Source: Leisingera sp. ANG1
GTDB taxonomy: Bacteria; Pseudomonadota; Alphaproteobacteria; Rhodobacterales; Rhodobacteraceae
Assembly: GCF_000203975.2 (NCBI RefSeq)
Contig: NZ_AFCF02000001.1
Location: 62,001-126,000, forward strand
Reading direction: 5' to 3'
DNA: 64,000 nucleotides
In this document: positions 15,674 through 38,074 of the stretch, piece after piece
How positions within the stretch are numbered: the first letter of the stretch is position 1
How the letters are laid out: the number at the start of each line of letters is the position of its first letter
Notes under the pieces: model-generated
Database searches by the model: none
What the model was told of the DNA's origin: nothing
What the model saw: the letters and a program-made list of their open reading frames with translations, nothing else
Program-made: the position numbers and the translations under genes

Positions 15674-16480
15674 TCAGATGTCCAGGTCGACCCAGACCGG
15701 AACATGGTCGGACGGCTTTTCGCGGCCCCGCACATCCTTGTCGATCTGGCAGTCCCGCAGCAGGTCAGCGGCCTGCGGCGTGAGCAGGAAATGGTCGATG
15801 CGGATGCCGTCGTCGCGGTTCCAGGCGCCGGCCTGGTAATCCCAAAAGGAATAATGCCCCGGCCCCTGGTGCCGCGCCCGGAACGCCTCGGTGAAGCCCA
15901 GGTTGACGATCCGCTGAAACGCCGCACGGCTTTCCGGACGGTGCAGAGCGTCCTCGCGCCAGGCCTCCGGGCGCTTGGCGTCCTCGGCCTGCGGGATGAT
16001 ATTGTAGTCCCCGGCCATCAGCGCGGGCATCTCTTCGGCCATCAGCGCCGCGGCGCGGGTCTTCAGCCGCTCCATCCAGGCCAGCTTGTAGGCGTATTTG
16101 CCGCCCGCCACCGGGCTGCCGTCTGCCTCCAGCTCCACCGGGTTGCCATTCGGCAGATACAGGCCGCAGATCCGGATCGCCTGCTTGCCCACCACGGTGG
16201 CCTCGATCCAGCGCGCCTGTTCGTCGCTGTCGTCGCCGGGCAGGCCGCGGCTCACATCCTCCAGCGGCAGCTTGGACAGGATTGCCACGCCATTGAAGCT
16301 CTTCTGGCCGTGGGTTTCGACGTTGTAGCCGCGCTCCTCGAAGATCTCGCGCGGGAAGGCCTCATCCACTGACTTGATTTCCTGCAGCAGCACCACATCG
16401 GGCTGCGCCTCATCCAGCCAGTCCGGCAGCGCCTGCGCCCGGGCCTTGATGCCATTGATGTTAAAAGTGGCGATTTTCAT
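15674..16480 (-). CDS. xthA: Exodeoxyribonuclease III
   Basis: AP endonuclease/3'-5' exonuclease of 268 residues that acts in base excision repair. The family motifs are present: MKIATFNINGIKAR at the start, LLQEIK near 32-37, SFNGVAILSK, GLYLPNGNP, MAGDYNIIPQAED, and RIDHFLLTPQAAD with the final SDHVPVWVDL. Together these contain the catalytic Asn, Glu, Tyr, Asp and His residues of the ExoIII/APE1 fold. A GGAGG sequence lies shortly before the ATG. The gene is convergent with the monooxygenase gene and divergent from the repeat-peptide operon. Confidence 0.95.
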   Translation of the reverse strand: MKIATFNINGIKARAQALPDWLDEAQPDVVLLQEIKSVDEAFPREIFEERGYNVETHGQKSFNGVAILSKLPLEDVSRGLPGDDSDEQARWIEATVVGKQAIRICGLYLPNGNPVELEADGSPVAGGKYAYKLAWMERLKTRAAALMAEEMPALMAGDYNIIPQAEDAKRPEAWREDALHRPESRAAFQRIVNLGFTEAFRARHQGPGHYSFWDYQAGAWNRDDGIRIDHFLLTPQAADLLRDCQIDKDVRGREKPSDHVPVWVDLDI

Positions 16481-16841: not shown

Positions 16842-17510
16842 ATGACTGCTCAGCGTAAAATCCAGACCATCCACGCAACCCGCCATGCCACTGGCGCCAG
16901 CCTGTTCGAGGGCGATGCAACAGAGATGTTCTCCTCCGGCTCCGCGCCTGAACTCAATGCGGGTCTGTCAGTAGGGGAAGGCGTTTCGCTGTTCTCCTCG
17001 GGCTCCATGCCGCAGACGGCAGAGAGCTGGGCAGGCGGGGAAACCGGGCTGTTCTCCAGCGGTTCGGCGCCGTCGGCCTGCAGCGAAACCGCGGCTGGCG
17101 ATCTGGTGGAGATGTTCTCCTCTGGCTCCGCCCCTGCCGCCCGCGCTGACACCTCAGCGGGGGATTTGGTGCAGATGTTTTCTTCCGGGTCTGCACCCTT
17201 AAATCAATCTGAGGTTGCTTCCGGCAATTTGACTGAACTGTTTTCTTCTGGCTCCGCCCCGGCAATGGGAAATGAAACCGCCTCCGGCGATCTGACGGAA
17301 ATGTTCTCGTCAGGCTCGGCCCCCGCGGCACAGGCCGGAACCGGCGCGGGCGAGGGGGTGGAAATGTTCTCCTCCGGCTCCGCTCCGGCCGCCACTGCAG
17401 AGGCGGGCGCGGGCGAGGGGACGCATCTGTTCTCCTCCGGCTCCGCACCGGCGGCTGAGGCCCGCACCAGCGACGGCGACGCGACCCGGCTGTTTTCCTC
17501 GGGCAGCTGA
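16842..17510 (+). CDS. Ten-motif FSSGS repeat protein, candidate multi-core peptide precursor
   Basis: Protein of 222 residues. A 28-residue leader (MTAQRKIQTIHATRHATGAS and following) precedes the first FSSGS at 30-34. Then come nine units, eight of 21 residues and one of 20. Each begins AP (once MP), varies in the middle, usually contains G(D/E/N) and a hydrophobic M or L, and ends in FSSGS; the last FSSGS is the C-terminus. The motif is invariant in protein sequence, yet its serines use TCC, TCG, TCT, TCA and AGC, so selection acts on the peptide. No signal sequence or fold is visible. The start at 16842 is chosen on the basic leader; its ribosome site is weak. An 8-base-pair hairpin follows, then a helical protein and an exporter gene. 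A bacterial multi-core modified-peptide precursor is the best guess; an adhesin-like or metal-binding repeat protein is the alternative. Confidence 0.7.
   Translation: MTAQRKIQTIHATRHATGASLFEGDATEMFSSGSAPELNAGLSVGEGVSLFSSGSMPQTAESWAGGETGLFSSGSAPSACSETAAGDLVEMFSSGSAPAARADTSAGDLVQMFSSGSAPLNQSEVASGNLTELFSSGSAPAMGNETASGDLTEMFSSGSAPAAQAGTGAGEGVEMFSSGSAPAATAEAGAGEGTHLFSSGSAPAAEARTSDGDATRLFSSGS
16927..17507 (+). repeat. Coding repeat with 63-base period
   Basis: The FSSGS-coding segments recur every 63 bases (once 60) through ten copies, in step with the protein units. Spacer DNA is diverged and synonymous positions differ within the core, so this is an old coding repeat, not a recent tandem duplication. 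Confidence 0.9.
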
Positions 17511-17517
17511 CCGGACC

Positions 17518-17541
17518 GGGGCCGGCCTCCCTCCCGGCCCC
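17518..17541 (+). promoter_or_regulatory. Intercistronic hairpin after the repeat-peptide gene
   Basis: GGGGCCGG and CCGGCCCC form an eight-pair stem with an eight-base loop, seven bases past the peptide stop and 66 bases before the next gene. There is no U-run. Such stems often protect or attenuate a message so that a precursor is made in excess of its enzyme; that role is inferred. Confidence 0.5.
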
Positions 17542-17607
17542 TGACCATCGGCGGTCCCGCATCCGGGGCCGCCCTTGCCGCGCCGCTCACACCCGCAGGA
17601 GGTTTCC

Positions 17608-18669
17608 ATGGCCCAGATCATCCCGTTCTTCTCACCATCCGCCCGCCAGTCCCGGGCGGATGCTCAGGCTGCGCTGATTGGCGGCTTCGCCGCGCAACGG
17701 CGCCCGCAGGAGGACGTGTTCTGGCTCAAGGAAAACGCCGAGCTGTTGAATATTCTGGAATGCACCAGAGCCGATGTTGCCGCTGAGGCCCTGGCGCCCT
17801 TGCAGGGGTTCTACGACGGTGCGGCGCGGCATATCAGTTTCTTCCGCCAGTATTACCGCTTCATCCTGTCGATCTGCTTGGATCTGGAAGACTTGGGTCA
17901 TCCCGGGGAGACCGGCGCGCAGCTGGCCGCATGGATCCGCGCCGAAGGGCTGGCGCAGGCAGAGCTGTCCGACCTGCAGCGCGCCGAAGCCCGCCGCCTG
18001 CTGGCGCGCCGCGGTGAGATCCTGCAGGACGACGGGTTGGACGACCGGCTGCGCGCTTTCATCTCGCGCCCGGAAACCTTTGCCATTCCAAACAAAAAAG
18101 CCGCTTACGAGCTGACCCACATCGTCTTTTACCTGTCGGAATACGGCCGCCGCGACCCGCAGCTGTCGCAGGCGGCGCTGACCAGTCTCGAGTTTGCGGG
18201 GCTGGTGGCCTTCCTCGACCAGAACGCTGATTTGCTTGCCGAAATCTGCATTGCGTTGCGCTATGCCGGCCAGCAGCCGCCCGCCGCCTGGGAGGGCTGG
18301 CTTGACAGGCATGTATCCGCCTTTACTCTATCAGAGCGAGAATTTTCTGGACTTCATGATTCTTATCACGAGTATTTTGTTGTTAACTGGCTCATGATCC
18401 TGTCTGGGCGAAAACCCTTCCGGCAGGCGGTTCCCGCGGGGGGCGTGCATGTGTCAGCTGTGCGGGGAGGAAGTATCTTGAGAAGCCTTTCAGAAGCAGT
18501 ATTCGAGGCCGGAATGGCCCAGTCAGGCTGGAGTGCCGTCAAGCGGCGCACCGAGGCCATGCTGAACGAGGAAGAACACGGGCTGCTGAGCGCGGCGGAA
18601 CGCAGCTGCGCCGGCTTTGCCCATTTCTTTGAAGGATTTGCCCGGGCGGGCAGCGCGGGGGCAGCGTGA
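17608..18669 (+). CDS. Helical protein of unknown function linked to the repeat peptide
   Basis: Cytoplasmic, mostly helical protein of 353 residues; I cannot assign a known enzyme family. Three segments share a His-plus-aromatic pattern: HISFFRQYYRF starting at 75, YELTHIVFYLSEYG at 167-180 and LHDSYHEYFVVNWLM at 249-263. Two of them are followed by Gly-Arg (YGR at 179-181, SGRKP at 266-270), which suggests an internal helical duplication with a buried His site. The start at 17608 follows GGAGG at five bases. DNA at about 18310-18400 is unusually AT-rich for the window. Its stop overlaps the start of the DMT transporter gene (TGATG). Its position between a multi-core peptide and an exporter suggests a peptide-modifying role, which is inference. 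Confidence 0.65.
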   Translation: MAQIIPFFSPSARQSRADAQAALIGGFAAQRRPQEDVFWLKENAELLNILECTRADVAAEALAPLQGFYDGAARHISFFRQYYRFILSICLDLEDLGHPGETGAQLAAWIRAEGLAQAELSDLQRAEARRLLARRGEILQDDGLDDRLRAFISRPETFAIPNKKAAYELTHIVFYLSEYGRRDPQLSQAALTSLEFAGLVAFLDQNADLLAEICIALRYAGQQPPAAWEGWLDRHVSAFTLSEREFSGLHDSYHEYFVVNWLMILSGRKPFRQAVPAGGVHVSAVRGGSILRSLSEAVFEAGMAQSGWSAVKRRTEAMLNEEEHGLLSAAERSCAGFAHFFEGFARAGSAGAA

Positions 18670-19586
18670 TGGGCTGTTCGCGCAACCAGGCTCTGGGCGG
18701 GGCCATGCTGGTGGTGGCCTATACTGGTCTGATCGCCTCTGCTGACGGGATCACGAAACTTTTGGCGGGCCAGTATGCGGCGGCGCAGCTTTACGCGCTG
18801 TCAGGGGCCATGGTGGTCGGATTCTGCCTGCTGGCGGACCGGCTCCCCCGGCTGCGCGGCGGCTTCCGCACCCGCTGCCCGCGGGCGATGGCGCTGCGCT
18901 CTGTGGCGACGCTGATTGCCGCTGTCTGTTTTTTCTATGCGTTCCGCCTGCTGCCCTTTGCCGAAGTGTTTGTCTTCATCGGACTGATGCCGCTTTTGGC
19001 GGGGGCGATGTCCGGCCTTGTGCTGAAGGAGCCGGTGCGCCCGGCGGCCTGGATTGCGCTGCTGGCTGGCTTTGCCGGGGTGCTGTTCCTGCTGCCCCAT
19101 GGCGGTGACGGCAGCCATTCCGCAACTGGTCATTTCGTGGCTTTCGCGGCGGTGGTGTCCGGCACGTTTTCCATGACCATTGCACGGTTTATCGGCCGTT
19201 ATGAAAGCAACGCGCTGGCGCAGGTGTTTTATCCGAACCTGACGCTGTGCGGTGCGATGCTGCTGGCGCTGCCATTTGTCTGGGTGCCGATGCCGCTGGC
19301 GGATGTTGCTTGGGCGGCAGCCTATGCGTTCCTGCTGTTCGGTGCGCGCTGGCTCCTGGTGGTGGCGCTGCGTCTGCTGGCCTCCTACGCCGTGACGCCG
19401 CTGATGAATCTGCAGTTCATCTGGATGGCAGTGATCGGCGCGGTGTTCTTTGGGGAGTTTCCGCCGGCCTCCACTTACTTGGGCGGCGCCATCGTTATTG
19501 CCTCCGGCCTCTATCTGGTCTGGGACCAGTTCGCACCCGCGATGCCGCGGCTGCGCAGTGCCGGGCGGCTGCAGACGGATCCGTGA
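18669..19586 (+). CDS. DMT superfamily (EamA) transporter of the peptide operon
   Basis: Inner-membrane protein of 305 residues with ten predicted membrane helices in two five-helix EamA repeats, for example LGGAMLVVAYTGLIASADG and YLGGAIVIASGLYLVWDQF. Members export metabolites such as amino acids, nucleosides or drugs. The ATG at 18669 overlaps the TGA of the preceding gene by one base, so translation is coupled. The coupling makes it the likely export step, or a supplier or remover of a small product, for the repeat-peptide system. Substrate is unknown. It ends 112 bases before erpA on the opposite strand. Confidence 0.83.
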   Translation: MGCSRNQALGGAMLVVAYTGLIASADGITKLLAGQYAAAQLYALSGAMVVGFCLLADRLPRLRGGFRTRCPRAMALRSVATLIAAVCFFYAFRLLPFAEVFVFIGLMPLLAGAMSGLVLKEPVRPAAWIALLAGFAGVLFLLPHGGDGSHSATGHFVAFAAVVSGTFSMTIARFIGRYESNALAQVFYPNLTLCGAMLLALPFVWVPMPLADVAWAAAYAFLLFGARWLLVVALRLLASYAVTPLMNLQFIWMAVIGAVFFGEFPPASTYLGGAIVIASGLYLVWDQFAPAMPRLRSAGRLQTDP

Positions 19587-19698: not shown

Positions 19699-20022
19699 TT
19701 ACATGGAGAACGAGGTGCCGCAGCCGCAGCTGGAGGTGGCGTTGGGGTTTTCGATGGTAAACCGCGCGCCGATCAATTCCTCGGTGAAGTCGATCACCGC
19801 GTTTTCAAGGAACGGCAGGGAAACACTGTCGACGACAACTTTTTCGCCCTGGCCTTCGAGCACCAGATCGTCGTCCTTTGCCTCATCCAGAGCAATCTCG
19901 TACTGGAAGCCGGAGCAGCCGCCGCCTTCCACCGCGACACGCAGCGCCTGGCCCTGGTCCGCGGCGCCGATCTCGGCCAGCCGGGCAAAGGCGCGGTCTG
20001 TGACTTTGGGGGGCAGGTTCAT
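19699..20022 (-). CDS. erpA: A-type iron-sulfur carrier, ErpA/IscA family
   Basis: Protein of 107 residues that carries and inserts Fe-S clusters into target apoproteins. The three conserved cysteines are visible: one in GGGCSGFQY near residues 36-44 and the C-terminal pair in SCGCG near 99-103. The start at 20022 is chosen because GGAG lies eight bases upstream; the frame extends to 20055 but that start has no ribosome site. The gene is divergent from dgt. ErpA is favoured over IscA because no other Isc gene is nearby, but the two are hard to tell apart by sequence alone. Confidence 0.88.
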   Translation of the reverse strand: MNLPPKVTDRAFARLAEIGAADQGQALRVAVEGGGCSGFQYEIALDEAKDDDLVLEGQGEKVVVDSVSLPFLENAVIDFTEELIGARFTIENPNATSSCGCGTSFSM

Positions 20023-20113
20023 CAGCTTTCTCCACGGGCGTAGGTTGCAGCGCAAAGCTTTATATAGAAAGGTGCAATTCAGGCGGCAAGATTTGTAAGG
20101 GAAAAGATTTCAT

Positions 20114-21265
20114 ATGCATGCGCCTTATGCCACGATGCCGGACCGCAGCCGCGGGCGGCAGGTGCCGGAGGAGGAGAGCTCCTTTCGTTCCCCCTACCAG
20201 CGCGACCGCGACCGGATTATCCACGCCAGCGCCTTCCGGCGGCTGAAACACAAGACCCAGGTGTTCGTGGAGCATGAGGGCGACAATTACCGCACACGTC
20301 TGACCCATTCGATCGAGGTCGGGCAGGTGGGCCGCACCATTGCCGGCGCGCTAGGGCTGAACCAGGAGCTGACCGAGGCAGTGGCGCTGGCGCATGACCT
20401 GGGACACACGCCGTTCGGCCACACTGGCGAGGATGCGCTGCATGCGCTGATGGCGCCTTATGGCGGCTTTGACCACAATGCCCAGGCGATCCGTATCGTG
20501 ACCTGCCTGGAGCGCCACTACGCCGAGTTTGACGGCTTGAACCTGACCTGGGAAACCCTTGAAGCGATTGCCAAACACAATGGCCCTGTGGTGGGGGAGC
20601 TGCCCTGGGCGCTGGCCGAATGCAATGCCGCCATCGACCTGGAACTGCACACCCATGCCAGCGCCGAGGCGCAGGTGGCGGCGCTGTCCGATGACATCGC
20701 ATATAACAACCACGACCTGCATGATGCGCTGCGGGCCGGGCTGTTTACCGACGGTGACTTGGCGCGGCTGCCGCTCTTGGACAGGGCCTATGGCGCGGTG
20801 GACCGGAAATACCCCGGCCTTGATCCCAACCGCCGCCGGCATGAGGCGCTGCGGCGGTTCTTTGGGTTCATGGTGGAGGATGTGATCAACACGGCCCAGC
20901 ACTTGCTTGCGGAATCCGGCGTGCAAAGCGTCGAGGAGGTCCGCGGTCTGGGCCATCCGGTGGTGAAATTCTCCGATTCGCTGTGGCGCGACCTGAAGGA
21001 AATCCGCGCCTTTCTGTTCACCCGCATGTACCGGGCGCCCTCTGTGATGGAGAAGCGGGCCAAAGTTGCCAAGGTGGTGGAGGCGCTGTTTCCCTATTTT
21101 CTGGACAATCCGCAGGACATGCCGGAGCGCTGGCACGCGGAGATTGCGGCCGCACAGGACCGCACCGCGCTGGCGCGGATCGTGTCGGATTACATCGCCG
21201 GCATGACCGACCGCTTTGCCCTGCAGCTGCATGAGCGGCTGATCGGGGTAAAGGTCGAGGTGTAA
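20114..21265 (+). CDS. dgt: Deoxyguanosinetriphosphate triphosphohydrolase
   Basis: HD-superfamily dNTPase of 383 residues that splits dNTPs to deoxynucleosides and tripolyphosphate, tuning precursor pools. The N-terminus SPYQRDRDRIIHASAFRRLKHKTQVF and TRLTHSIEVGQVGRTIA are typical. The metal-binding HD motif is AHDLGHTPFGHTGE near residues 94-107, and a later DDIAYNNHDLHDAL supplies further ligands. The length matches the shorter alphaproteobacterial form. The ATG at 20114 lies 91 bases from the divergent erpA start, so they share a promoter region. Confidence 0.93.
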   Translation: MHAPYATMPDRSRGRQVPEEESSFRSPYQRDRDRIIHASAFRRLKHKTQVFVEHEGDNYRTRLTHSIEVGQVGRTIAGALGLNQELTEAVALAHDLGHTPFGHTGEDALHALMAPYGGFDHNAQAIRIVTCLERHYAEFDGLNLTWETLEAIAKHNGPVVGELPWALAECNAAIDLELHTHASAEAQVAALSDDIAYNNHDLHDALRAGLFTDGDLARLPLLDRAYGAVDRKYPGLDPNRRRHEALRRFFGFMVEDVINTAQHLLAESGVQSVEEVRGLGHPVVKFSDSLWRDLKEIRAFLFTRMYRAPSVMEKRAKVAKVVEALFPYFLDNPQDMPERWHAEIAAAQDRTALARIVSDYIAGMTDRFALQLHERLIGVKVEV

Positions 21266-37537: not shown

Positions 37538-38074
37538 TCAGTCCTCATCTTTCAGCTGGCCGCGCAGCGCGGCAAGACCGGCGAAGGGCTTGGTGTCCTC
37601 GTCCCGCATCGGCTGCACGCCATCCTCGGCATAAACGGCTTCGCCGAGTTCTGCGCCGTCCTTGCGCGGATAGGCGGGGATATGCAGTGCCAGCGCCTCT
37701 GCCATCACGGCAGCCGGGTCGATGTGTGTGCCCAGCGGTTCGATGCTGTCATCTTCGGGCATTTCGACCTCGGCACCTTCCGGGGTCTCAACGCGGGCCA
37801 GGTAGGTGATCTCCACCTGTTCCTCGATCCGGGTGGTGACCGGCTCCAGCGTCACCACGCAATCCTGCACCACGGTGGCGCCCAGGCGGCCGATCAGTTT
37901 CCAGTCCTTCTTGCCCATCGCCTTGATTTCACCGGTGAAGCGCAGTTTGCGCACTGCGTTCACCCCCATTTCCGCCGCAAGCGCGGTCAGGGTGTCCTTG
38001 TCCGGGATGATTTCAAAGGCAGTCGGGGTGTTCTGAGGCAGGTCCGCGACCCGCAAAGCGGTGCTGTCAGACAT
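37538..38074 (-). CDS. YceD (DUF177) family protein
   Basis: Protein of 178 residues with the DUF177 pattern. A C-terminal acidic segment follows a central core that includes VVQDCVVTLEPVTTRIEEQVEITYL and the later AVMAEALALHIPAYPRKDGAEL. The conserved cysteine of the family lies in QDCVVTLEP. YceD is linked to 23S rRNA or ribosome maturation in some bacteria and normally sits before rpmF, as here, about 220 bases upstream. Confidence 0.88.
   Translation of the reverse strand: MSDSTALRVADLPQNTPTAFEIIPDKDTLTALAAEMGVNAVRKLRFTGEIKAMGKKDWKLIGRLGATVVQDCVVTLEPVTTRIEEQVEITYLARVETPEGAEVEMPEDDSIEPLGTHIDPAAVMAEALALHIPAYPRKDGAELGEAVYAEDGVQPMRDEDTKPFAGLAALRGQLKDED

Follow-up and report, generated by a model that had tools for sequence, protein, structure and literature searches.

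A repeated-pentapeptide precursor and a DUF6902 protein form a candidate peptide-modification system in Leisingera and related Rhodobacteraceae

We describe a locus in a 64,000-nucleotide stretch of DNA from Leisingera sp. ANG1 (Rhodobacteraceae; contig NZ_AFCF02000001.1, positions 62,001 to 126,000 of the forward strand), referred to here as the window, whose positions are used for all coordinates. A gene for a 222-residue protein carrying ten copies of the pentapeptide FSSGS (16842..17510, forward strand, ATG at 16842) is followed on the same strand by a gene for a 353-residue protein of the Pfam family DUF6902 (17608..18669). The two genes occur together among relatives, the pentapeptide cores are uniform within most precursors, and the second protein has a conserved candidate site of two histidines and two acidic residues. 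We read the pair as a multi-core precursor of the kind known from ribosomally synthesized and post-translationally modified peptides (RiPPs) together with its maturase, with epimerization as the leading chemistry, and give this reading a probability of roughly 0.65.

The repeat precursor

The initial annotation saw in the first protein a leader and ten FSSGS motifs, the last at the very end, and this description proved exact. A leader region of residues 1-29 (MTAQRKIQ..., 16842..16928, forward strand) is followed by exact motifs starting at residues 30, 51, 71, 92, 113, 134, 155, 176, 197 and 218, a period of about 21 residues. The corresponding forward-strand positions are 16929..16943, 16992..17006, 17052..17066, 17115..17129, 17178..17192, 17241..17255, 17304..17318, 17367..17381, 17430..17444 and 17493..17507. 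Each core stands in the frame G-x5-FSSGS-x-P, save the tenth, which is the C-terminus. No five-residue word occurred more than three times in any of 2000 residue shuffles of the protein. A Pfam scan of 38 precursors (A3) at E 0.1 matched 37 families, some of them at low E-values, such as zf-FCS (1.8e-11, one member) and DUF7372 (5.4e-5, four members). These matches were treated together, not singly, as repeat artefacts, and a known Pfam precursor family was set aside, no family being found in more than four of the 38.

Tandem Repeats Finder (score of at least 40) detected no DNA array within the precursor gene, and such an array was rejected as the source of the repeat. Codon comparisons among the ten cores gave 127 synonymous differences in 225 and no non-synonymous ones, a zero that is partly built in by defining the cores as FSSGS; the eight codons preceding each core gave 63 synonymous and 223 non-synonymous differences in 360 comparisons. 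The many synonymous codons in the cores, together with the lack of a DNA array, indicate that the repeat resides in the protein and not in the DNA, and for the same reasons the cores are evidently old and kept by selection on the peptide.

Co-occurrence of the two genes

A repeat gene commonly found without the second gene was one of the outcomes that the initial annotation regarded as fatal to its proposal, and the genomes show the opposite. We searched 295 genomes of the family for the enzyme and with a repeat-gene profile, which was built from 38 diverse precursors taken partly from the positive genomes and from none of the 213 enzyme-negative ones. The two draws of 295 genomes were made in the same manner and share their handles, from which the negatives were taken to be the same genomes. 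The enzyme was present in 82 genomes and the repeat gene in 79; all 79 were enzyme-positive, and none of the 213 enzyme-negative genomes had a repeat match (Fisher p about 6e-69, relatedness being ignored). The enzyme-positive genomes without a repeat match are G039, whose enzyme is 26% identical, G139, where only a fragment at a contig end is present, and G288. Parts of the repeat gene lie on another contig in G250, G027 and G053, as assemblies are expected to break in repeats.

A second scan of named genomes, which overlaps with the 295-genome set, kept the best 80 of 368 relatives. These cover 31 named genera, including Leisingera, Ruegeria, Shimia, Roseovarius and Salipiger, and a script placed the repeat gene just upstream of the enzyme gene in 79 of the best 80, the remaining locus (L145) being interrupted by a run of N. 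Beyond the family DUF6902 is rare: it was detected above cut-off in four genomes of a class-wide sample of 385, all four from the same family and the window's genome among them. Merging 18 loci whose enzymes share an identical middle section reduced 162 loci to 144 unique ones; L083, the G139 fragment, has no enzyme match and is outside the 162. The repeat gene is directly upstream by script in 140 of the 144, the window itself included. The repeat gene of L100 is cut by an assembly gap (a run of N) and L082 starts at a contig end, leaving L056 and L081 as the only evaluable loci that lack it. The genomes of these two loci, G288 and G039, have no repeat-profile match anywhere.

Core variation among relatives

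A script assigned 41 dominant pentamers to 140 unique precursors, among them FSSGS, FTSWS, FTSGL, FTTSM and FTNWC; a few of these assignments, such as SSTCL and LSPSC, are out of register. The commonest precursor starts are MTA, MSA and MNA. Copy number ranges from 2 to 20 and the spacing is mostly 20 or 21 residues, with values of 8, 17 and 19 also seen; the two-copy precursors of L066 and L068 have only 57 residues. Precursors with FTSGL cores (L043, L049, L106 and relatives) contain doublets eight residues apart (FTSGLVQMFTSGL) within the 20-21 pattern. The first core residue is Phe in about 93% of cases, the third is Ser in about 90%, Thr in 7%, Cys in 1% and Asn in 1%, and the fourth is Gly in about 60%. 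The divergent locus L077 has the core YIAGL, with Ala in third place, and its enzyme carries K164N and E168A. Cores of L220 and L221 (G967, G994) read STSSF, with Phe shifted to the last position and Ser still third. L079 has two different small repeat precursors 5' of its enzyme gene, an FTSGS type that ends about 490 bases away and an FGSSC type about 116 bases away.

When units were anchored on G at position -6 and F or Y at position 0 only, leaving positions +1 to +4 free, 936 units were collected from 132 precursors, and 916 of them carry the tetramer of their gene. Mismatch at +1 to +4 is 0.02-0.04 within a gene and 0.59, 0.18, 0.57 and 0.55, respectively, between genes; for linker positions +7 and +8 the corresponding values are 0.70 and 0.84-0.85. 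Fully uniform precursors number 117 of 132, compared with a maximum of 6 in 1000 shuffles of the tetramers. The ratio of non-synonymous to synonymous polymorphism (pN/pS) between units, a freer test of core constraint than the codon comparison of the ten FSSGS copies, is 0.12 in the core, 0.53 in the flank and 0.75 in the linker; judged by these ratios, purifying selection holds the core. The core nevertheless changes at least 58 times on a FastTree tree of 137 enzymes (48 of its 134 inner branches are open), and sister enzymes may adjoin unlike cores, as in L098 (FTSGS) and L142 (FSSGS). The precursor ends exactly at a core in 104 of 140 cases, comprising 103 of the 117 precursors with non-Trp cores and one of the 23 with Trp cores.

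Family, fold and candidate site of the enzyme

The initial annotation could place the second protein in no known family. It matches DUF6902 (PF21843) with 475.1 bits (cut-off 27) over model positions 1-351 of 351, and DUF6895 (PF21836) with 82.5 bits (cut-off 23.8) over profile positions 18-241 of 289, both being domains of unknown function in Pfam. The repeated His-aromatic motifs noted at the outset are real (RHISFFRQYYRF, ELTHIVFYLSEYG and DSYHEYFVVNW), and the histidines of the last two (171 and 254) are conserved. AlphaFold2 predicts an all-helical protein but for two short strands, with a predicted local distance difference test (pLDDT) score of 90.2 and a predicted template modeling (pTM) score of 0.90. 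A Foldseek search with this model gave nothing at E 0.001 or better, with template modeling (TM) scores of 0.31-0.39 by query length. The probabilities were 0.99 for a chain of a secretory translocon complex (top), 0.96 for complement C4b, 0.85 for transcobalamin and 0.63 for GH154. The last three proteins, which we take to be alpha/alpha toroids, are among the highest probabilities, a loose architectural hint only. No solved homolog was found by sequence, the best match being 4j8s at E 2.1.

An alignment of DUF6902 members with four DUF6895 proteins of other lineages (11 rows) has G180 in all rows and P80, Y167, L169, H171, D208, E212 and H254 in ten. The exception at P80 is the window enzyme, which has Arg, and the exception at H171, D208, E212 and H254 is L081; these last four residues are present in all four DUF6895 proteins. 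Across the 144 loci, leaving aside gap rows, which are truncated enzyme frames, H171 and D208 are each kept in 139 of 141, E212 in 140 of 141 and H254 in 139 of 140.

The only two loci that have lost H171 and D208 are L056 and L081, the same two that lack the repeat gene. L056 has H171R and D208S, and L081 has H171Q, D208L, E212R and H254T. Such a paired loss of precursor and site residues is what would be expected were the repeat protein acted on at that site. Both enzyme genes keep their place between xth and the erpA-like gene. The two DUF6902 genes could be in decay or have acquired a new role.

Peptide genes beside DUF6895 relatives

In four genomes from outside the family, DUF6895 genes sit behind genes for short peptides whose C-terminal stretches are aromatic; two of these are in tandem. 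L216 (G765) has two peptides of 65-66 residues ending in ...GRWYVYVGTEE and ...GPWFVLAGDQT, L217 (G834) a 143-residue peptide with GPWYIYKE and GPWFVLKEG, L218 (G595) a 138-residue peptide with two WTFVSPNYVYK-like stretches, and L205 (G297) a 78-residue peptide with AWAFIVKGKFVFKDD. Four of these peptides, including one of the two of L216, matched no Pfam family at E 0.01. By eye they share a similar-looking leader, ALxxAGIInxxxTLDQL, and their cores are aromatic and in some cases in tandem. The L216 genes also adjoin a protein of papain-like appearance (by eye) and another that matches no Pfam family.

The pairing of a peptide with a DUF6895-type enzyme thus seems wider than the window's system; these peptides would be the putative substrates of the adjoining proteins, and the four sets could possibly represent a further RiPP class. 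The idea of a leader and multi-core precursor with a dedicated enzyme, put forward in the initial annotation, is supported by the co-occurrence in 79 of 79 genomes and by relatives outside the family that also follow peptide genes.

Genomic setting and the EamA gene

The gene order, the 97-base gap between the precursor stop and the enzyme start, and the one-base overlap that follows were all given correctly at the outset. AGGAGG stands just 5' of the enzyme gene, and the enzyme TGA shares one base, 18669, with the ATG of a gene for a 305-residue EamA/drug-metabolite transporter (18669..19586, forward strand). The assignment of this third gene to EamA stands as well, with a Pfam match of 46.9 bits in two stretches (cut-off 28.2). 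The left neighbor is xth, encoding exodeoxyribonuclease III (15674..16480, reverse strand). On the right are a gene for an ErpA-like iron-sulfur insertion protein (19699..20055, reverse strand), which scores 112 bits, just below the ErpA model cut-off of 117, and 110.5 bits against TIGR00049 (cut-off 58.8), and dgt, encoding dGTP triphosphohydrolase (20114..21265, forward strand). Upstream xth is present in 134 of 144 loci, and the erpA-like gene and dgt are each present downstream in 129; more than 2.6 kb of upstream sequence was available for 134 loci and more than 4.5 kb downstream for 137.

The exporter was expected to be a fixed part of the system, which does not hold, since EamA is directly downstream of the enzyme gene in only 116 of the 144 loci. 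Among the 28 others, L070 is cut off too early to judge, L195 has EamA further on, after an enzyme gene whose frame is broken, and 21 reach the erpA-like gene within 100 bases. We examined 16 EamA-less genomes of the first set, those in which the enzyme is full-length and undecayed and sufficient sequence was available. They hold only distant EamA proteins, the best at 37% identity, and a relocated ortholog was rejected for these 16 of the 28 loci. EamA is therefore not obligatory and not essential everywhere.

Enzyme distances correlate with those of dgt at r 0.52 and with those of xth at 0.43, close to the 0.49 between dgt and xth themselves (117 loci), and more tightly, at 0.78, with those of EamA (99 loci). 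Because the enzyme tracks dgt and xth as these track each other, the pattern fits mainly vertical inheritance with many losses and no roaming cluster. No plasmid copies were found by tblastn.

A promoter scan gave three sites against 0.7 expected, one of them on the forward strand before the precursor, and a terminator scan gave three against 4.1 expected; neither was used. None of the three proteins matched a family among the PADLOC anti-phage defense models (E 0.01), and a defense reading was rejected. Guanine-cytosine skew rises from near zero to about +0.13 at about position 38000 and stays positive (0.06-0.15) to the end of the window.

Proposed function and alternatives

That the pair is a precursor and its maturase is, from these comparisons, highly probable; given such a pair, epimerization is about evenly balanced against all other chemistries. 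Epimerization is favored because a DUF6895 member is called a lasso-peptide epimerase in the title of Shi et al., ACS Catal. 2026 (cited in PMC13352647), and because of the histidine and acidic residues of the site and the tolerance of the core. The DUF6902 enzyme would recognize the leader, the G...F...P frame or both and modify each core, inverting one residue from L to D by acid/base chemistry with His171, Asp208, Glu212 and His254. The third core residue or Phe would most likely be the target; the fourth residue (+3) is often Gly, which rules it out as a general one. The cores would be freed by a protease from another place in the genome cutting after the fifth residue; most precursors terminate naturally at a core, which suggests cleavage at the corresponding bond of the remaining cores. 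EamA, where present, may export the short product. The peptide-modification proposal of the initial annotation is thus supported in part, for its leader, multi-core precursor and dedicated enzyme but not for the exporter as a fixed part.

Several results weigh against this reading. AlphaFold2 models the precursor not as a disordered chain but as a ladder of short strands, one per core (pTM 0.68, mean pLDDT 68.6). EamA does not directly follow the enzyme gene at 28 of 144 loci, and no peptidase gene was seen between xth and dgt within the window. Fifteen of the 132 precursors are not fully uniform; some are true mixtures (FSTSC and FSSGS in L041 and L188, FTSGS and FTTSA in L130) and others resemble chance anchors. 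Trp-core precursors do not end at the core in 22 of 23 cases, most having GP plus a few residues at the end. The paired decay comprises two cases only, the L081 enzyme being about 25% identical and its alignment uncertain, and the L056 enzyme retains E212 and H254. Homology to DUF6895, finally, does not fix the reaction.

The likeliest alternative keeps the same architecture with an enzyme that is not an epimerase, and we consider it rather unlikely. The enzyme could carry out a metal-dependent change of the Ser, Thr or Cys in third position, or the precursor could be a scaffold releasing a small modified unit, with many copies per translation. The narrow choice of third residue would suit such chemistry, and the two conserved histidines and two acidic residues could serve as metal ligands. 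A small product would also suit EamA, since transporters of this family usually export small molecules. The title given to the DUF6895 relative speaks for epimerization instead, and in L077 the Ala of YIAGL leaves nothing on which hydroxyl or thiol chemistry could act, with the reservation that the L077 enzyme differs too.

It is improbable, though to be taken seriously as a rival, that the repeat protein is an uncut structural beta-solenoid, its cores stacked in a ladder, which the second protein assembles, decorates or chaperones. The predicted ladder, to which each 21-residue repeat contributes about two short strands and in which ten-residue block means reach 86 in mid-protein, and the spacing of mostly 20 or 21 residues are what such a protein would display, and identical residues are also favored by stacked coils. 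AlphaFold2 is, however, reported to give such folds for meaningless perfect repeats (PMC11795689). Copy numbers from 2 to 20 and spacings of 8, 17 and 19 fit a solenoid poorly, and the 57-residue precursors of L066 and L068 are too short for one. A run of four adjacent positions that stays constant inside a gene but changes from one close relative to another is unlike an inward/outward pattern. No signal sequence is apparent by eye (no prediction was run), and the related DUF6895 loci hold short peptides of another kind. That enzyme and repeat protein instead bind each other for a different purpose, such as regulating xth, the erpA-like gene or dgt without peptide production, is very improbable. 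In nearly every locus the pair does occupy one fixed position, flanked by xth and erpA-dgt, but this is outweighed by the 213 of 295 family genomes in which these neighbors do without the enzyme, by block-wise core switching, which is unexpected of a regulator, and by DUF6895 relatives outside the family that are not beside xth among the matches listed.

Returning to the precursor and maturase, we offer a more far-reaching suggestion only tentatively, as one that is rather doubtful: a new RiPP class of the roseobacters, chromosomally fixed and inherited mainly by vertical descent, in which each species would make many copies of its own pentapeptide, with a residue inverted in each copy, as a species-specific signal or public good, the arrays switching as a block when lineages diverge. 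If true, two Pfam domains of unknown function would gain a working hypothesis, and a major group of marine bacteria would gain a RiPP class, at a site resembling ordinary core genome. The 41 core pentamers set against 137 enzyme sequences would be a natural library for studying how substrate changes are read by a single enzyme family, and how an array of up to 20 cores stays identical and then switches as a block would become directly testable.

Comparison with known systems

The initial annotation knew of no described system of this kind, and that stands within the literature searched, which leaves out most subscription papers. No publication naming DUF6902 was found there, the lasso-epimerase title is the sole trace found for DUF6895, and titles and abstract beginnings among the matches listed contain no description of a repeated-pentapeptide system. 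The window enzyme is homologous to the DUF6895 family named in that title (82.5 bits against the Pfam model), and Y167, H171, D208, E212 and H254 are kept in the four DUF6895 proteins. It belongs to its own family, DUF6902, whose E45 and D122 those four lack. The substrate here, unlike that of the titled lasso-peptide epimerase, would be a long repeat precursor. A lasso cluster was rejected, no lasso precursor, protease or cyclase gene being found among the immediate neighbors (xth, the repeat gene, EamA, the erpA-like gene and dgt), to which the scan was confined.

MslH is reported as a lasso-peptide epimerase with two His/Asp pairs in acid/base catalysis (PMC10406935). If epimerization is true, the reaction would be of the same kind, and DUF6902 likewise conserves two histidines and two acidic residues. 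The fold of MslH is calcineurin-like and includes a Ca(II) site, whereas the DUF6902 model is all-helical and does not have the fold of MslH-type epimerases, so that the likeness would be convergence at most.

By anatomy only, the locus corresponds to a RiPP system, with a ribosomal precursor made of a leader and cores and an adjoining putative modifying enzyme. Several cores per precursor are likewise described for microviridin (PMC5934393) and for fungal repeats processed by Kex2 (PMC7329392). Those precursors have other enzymes and other cores, whereas the system described here has up to 20 copies of a pentamer that is mostly uniform within a gene and switches between species.

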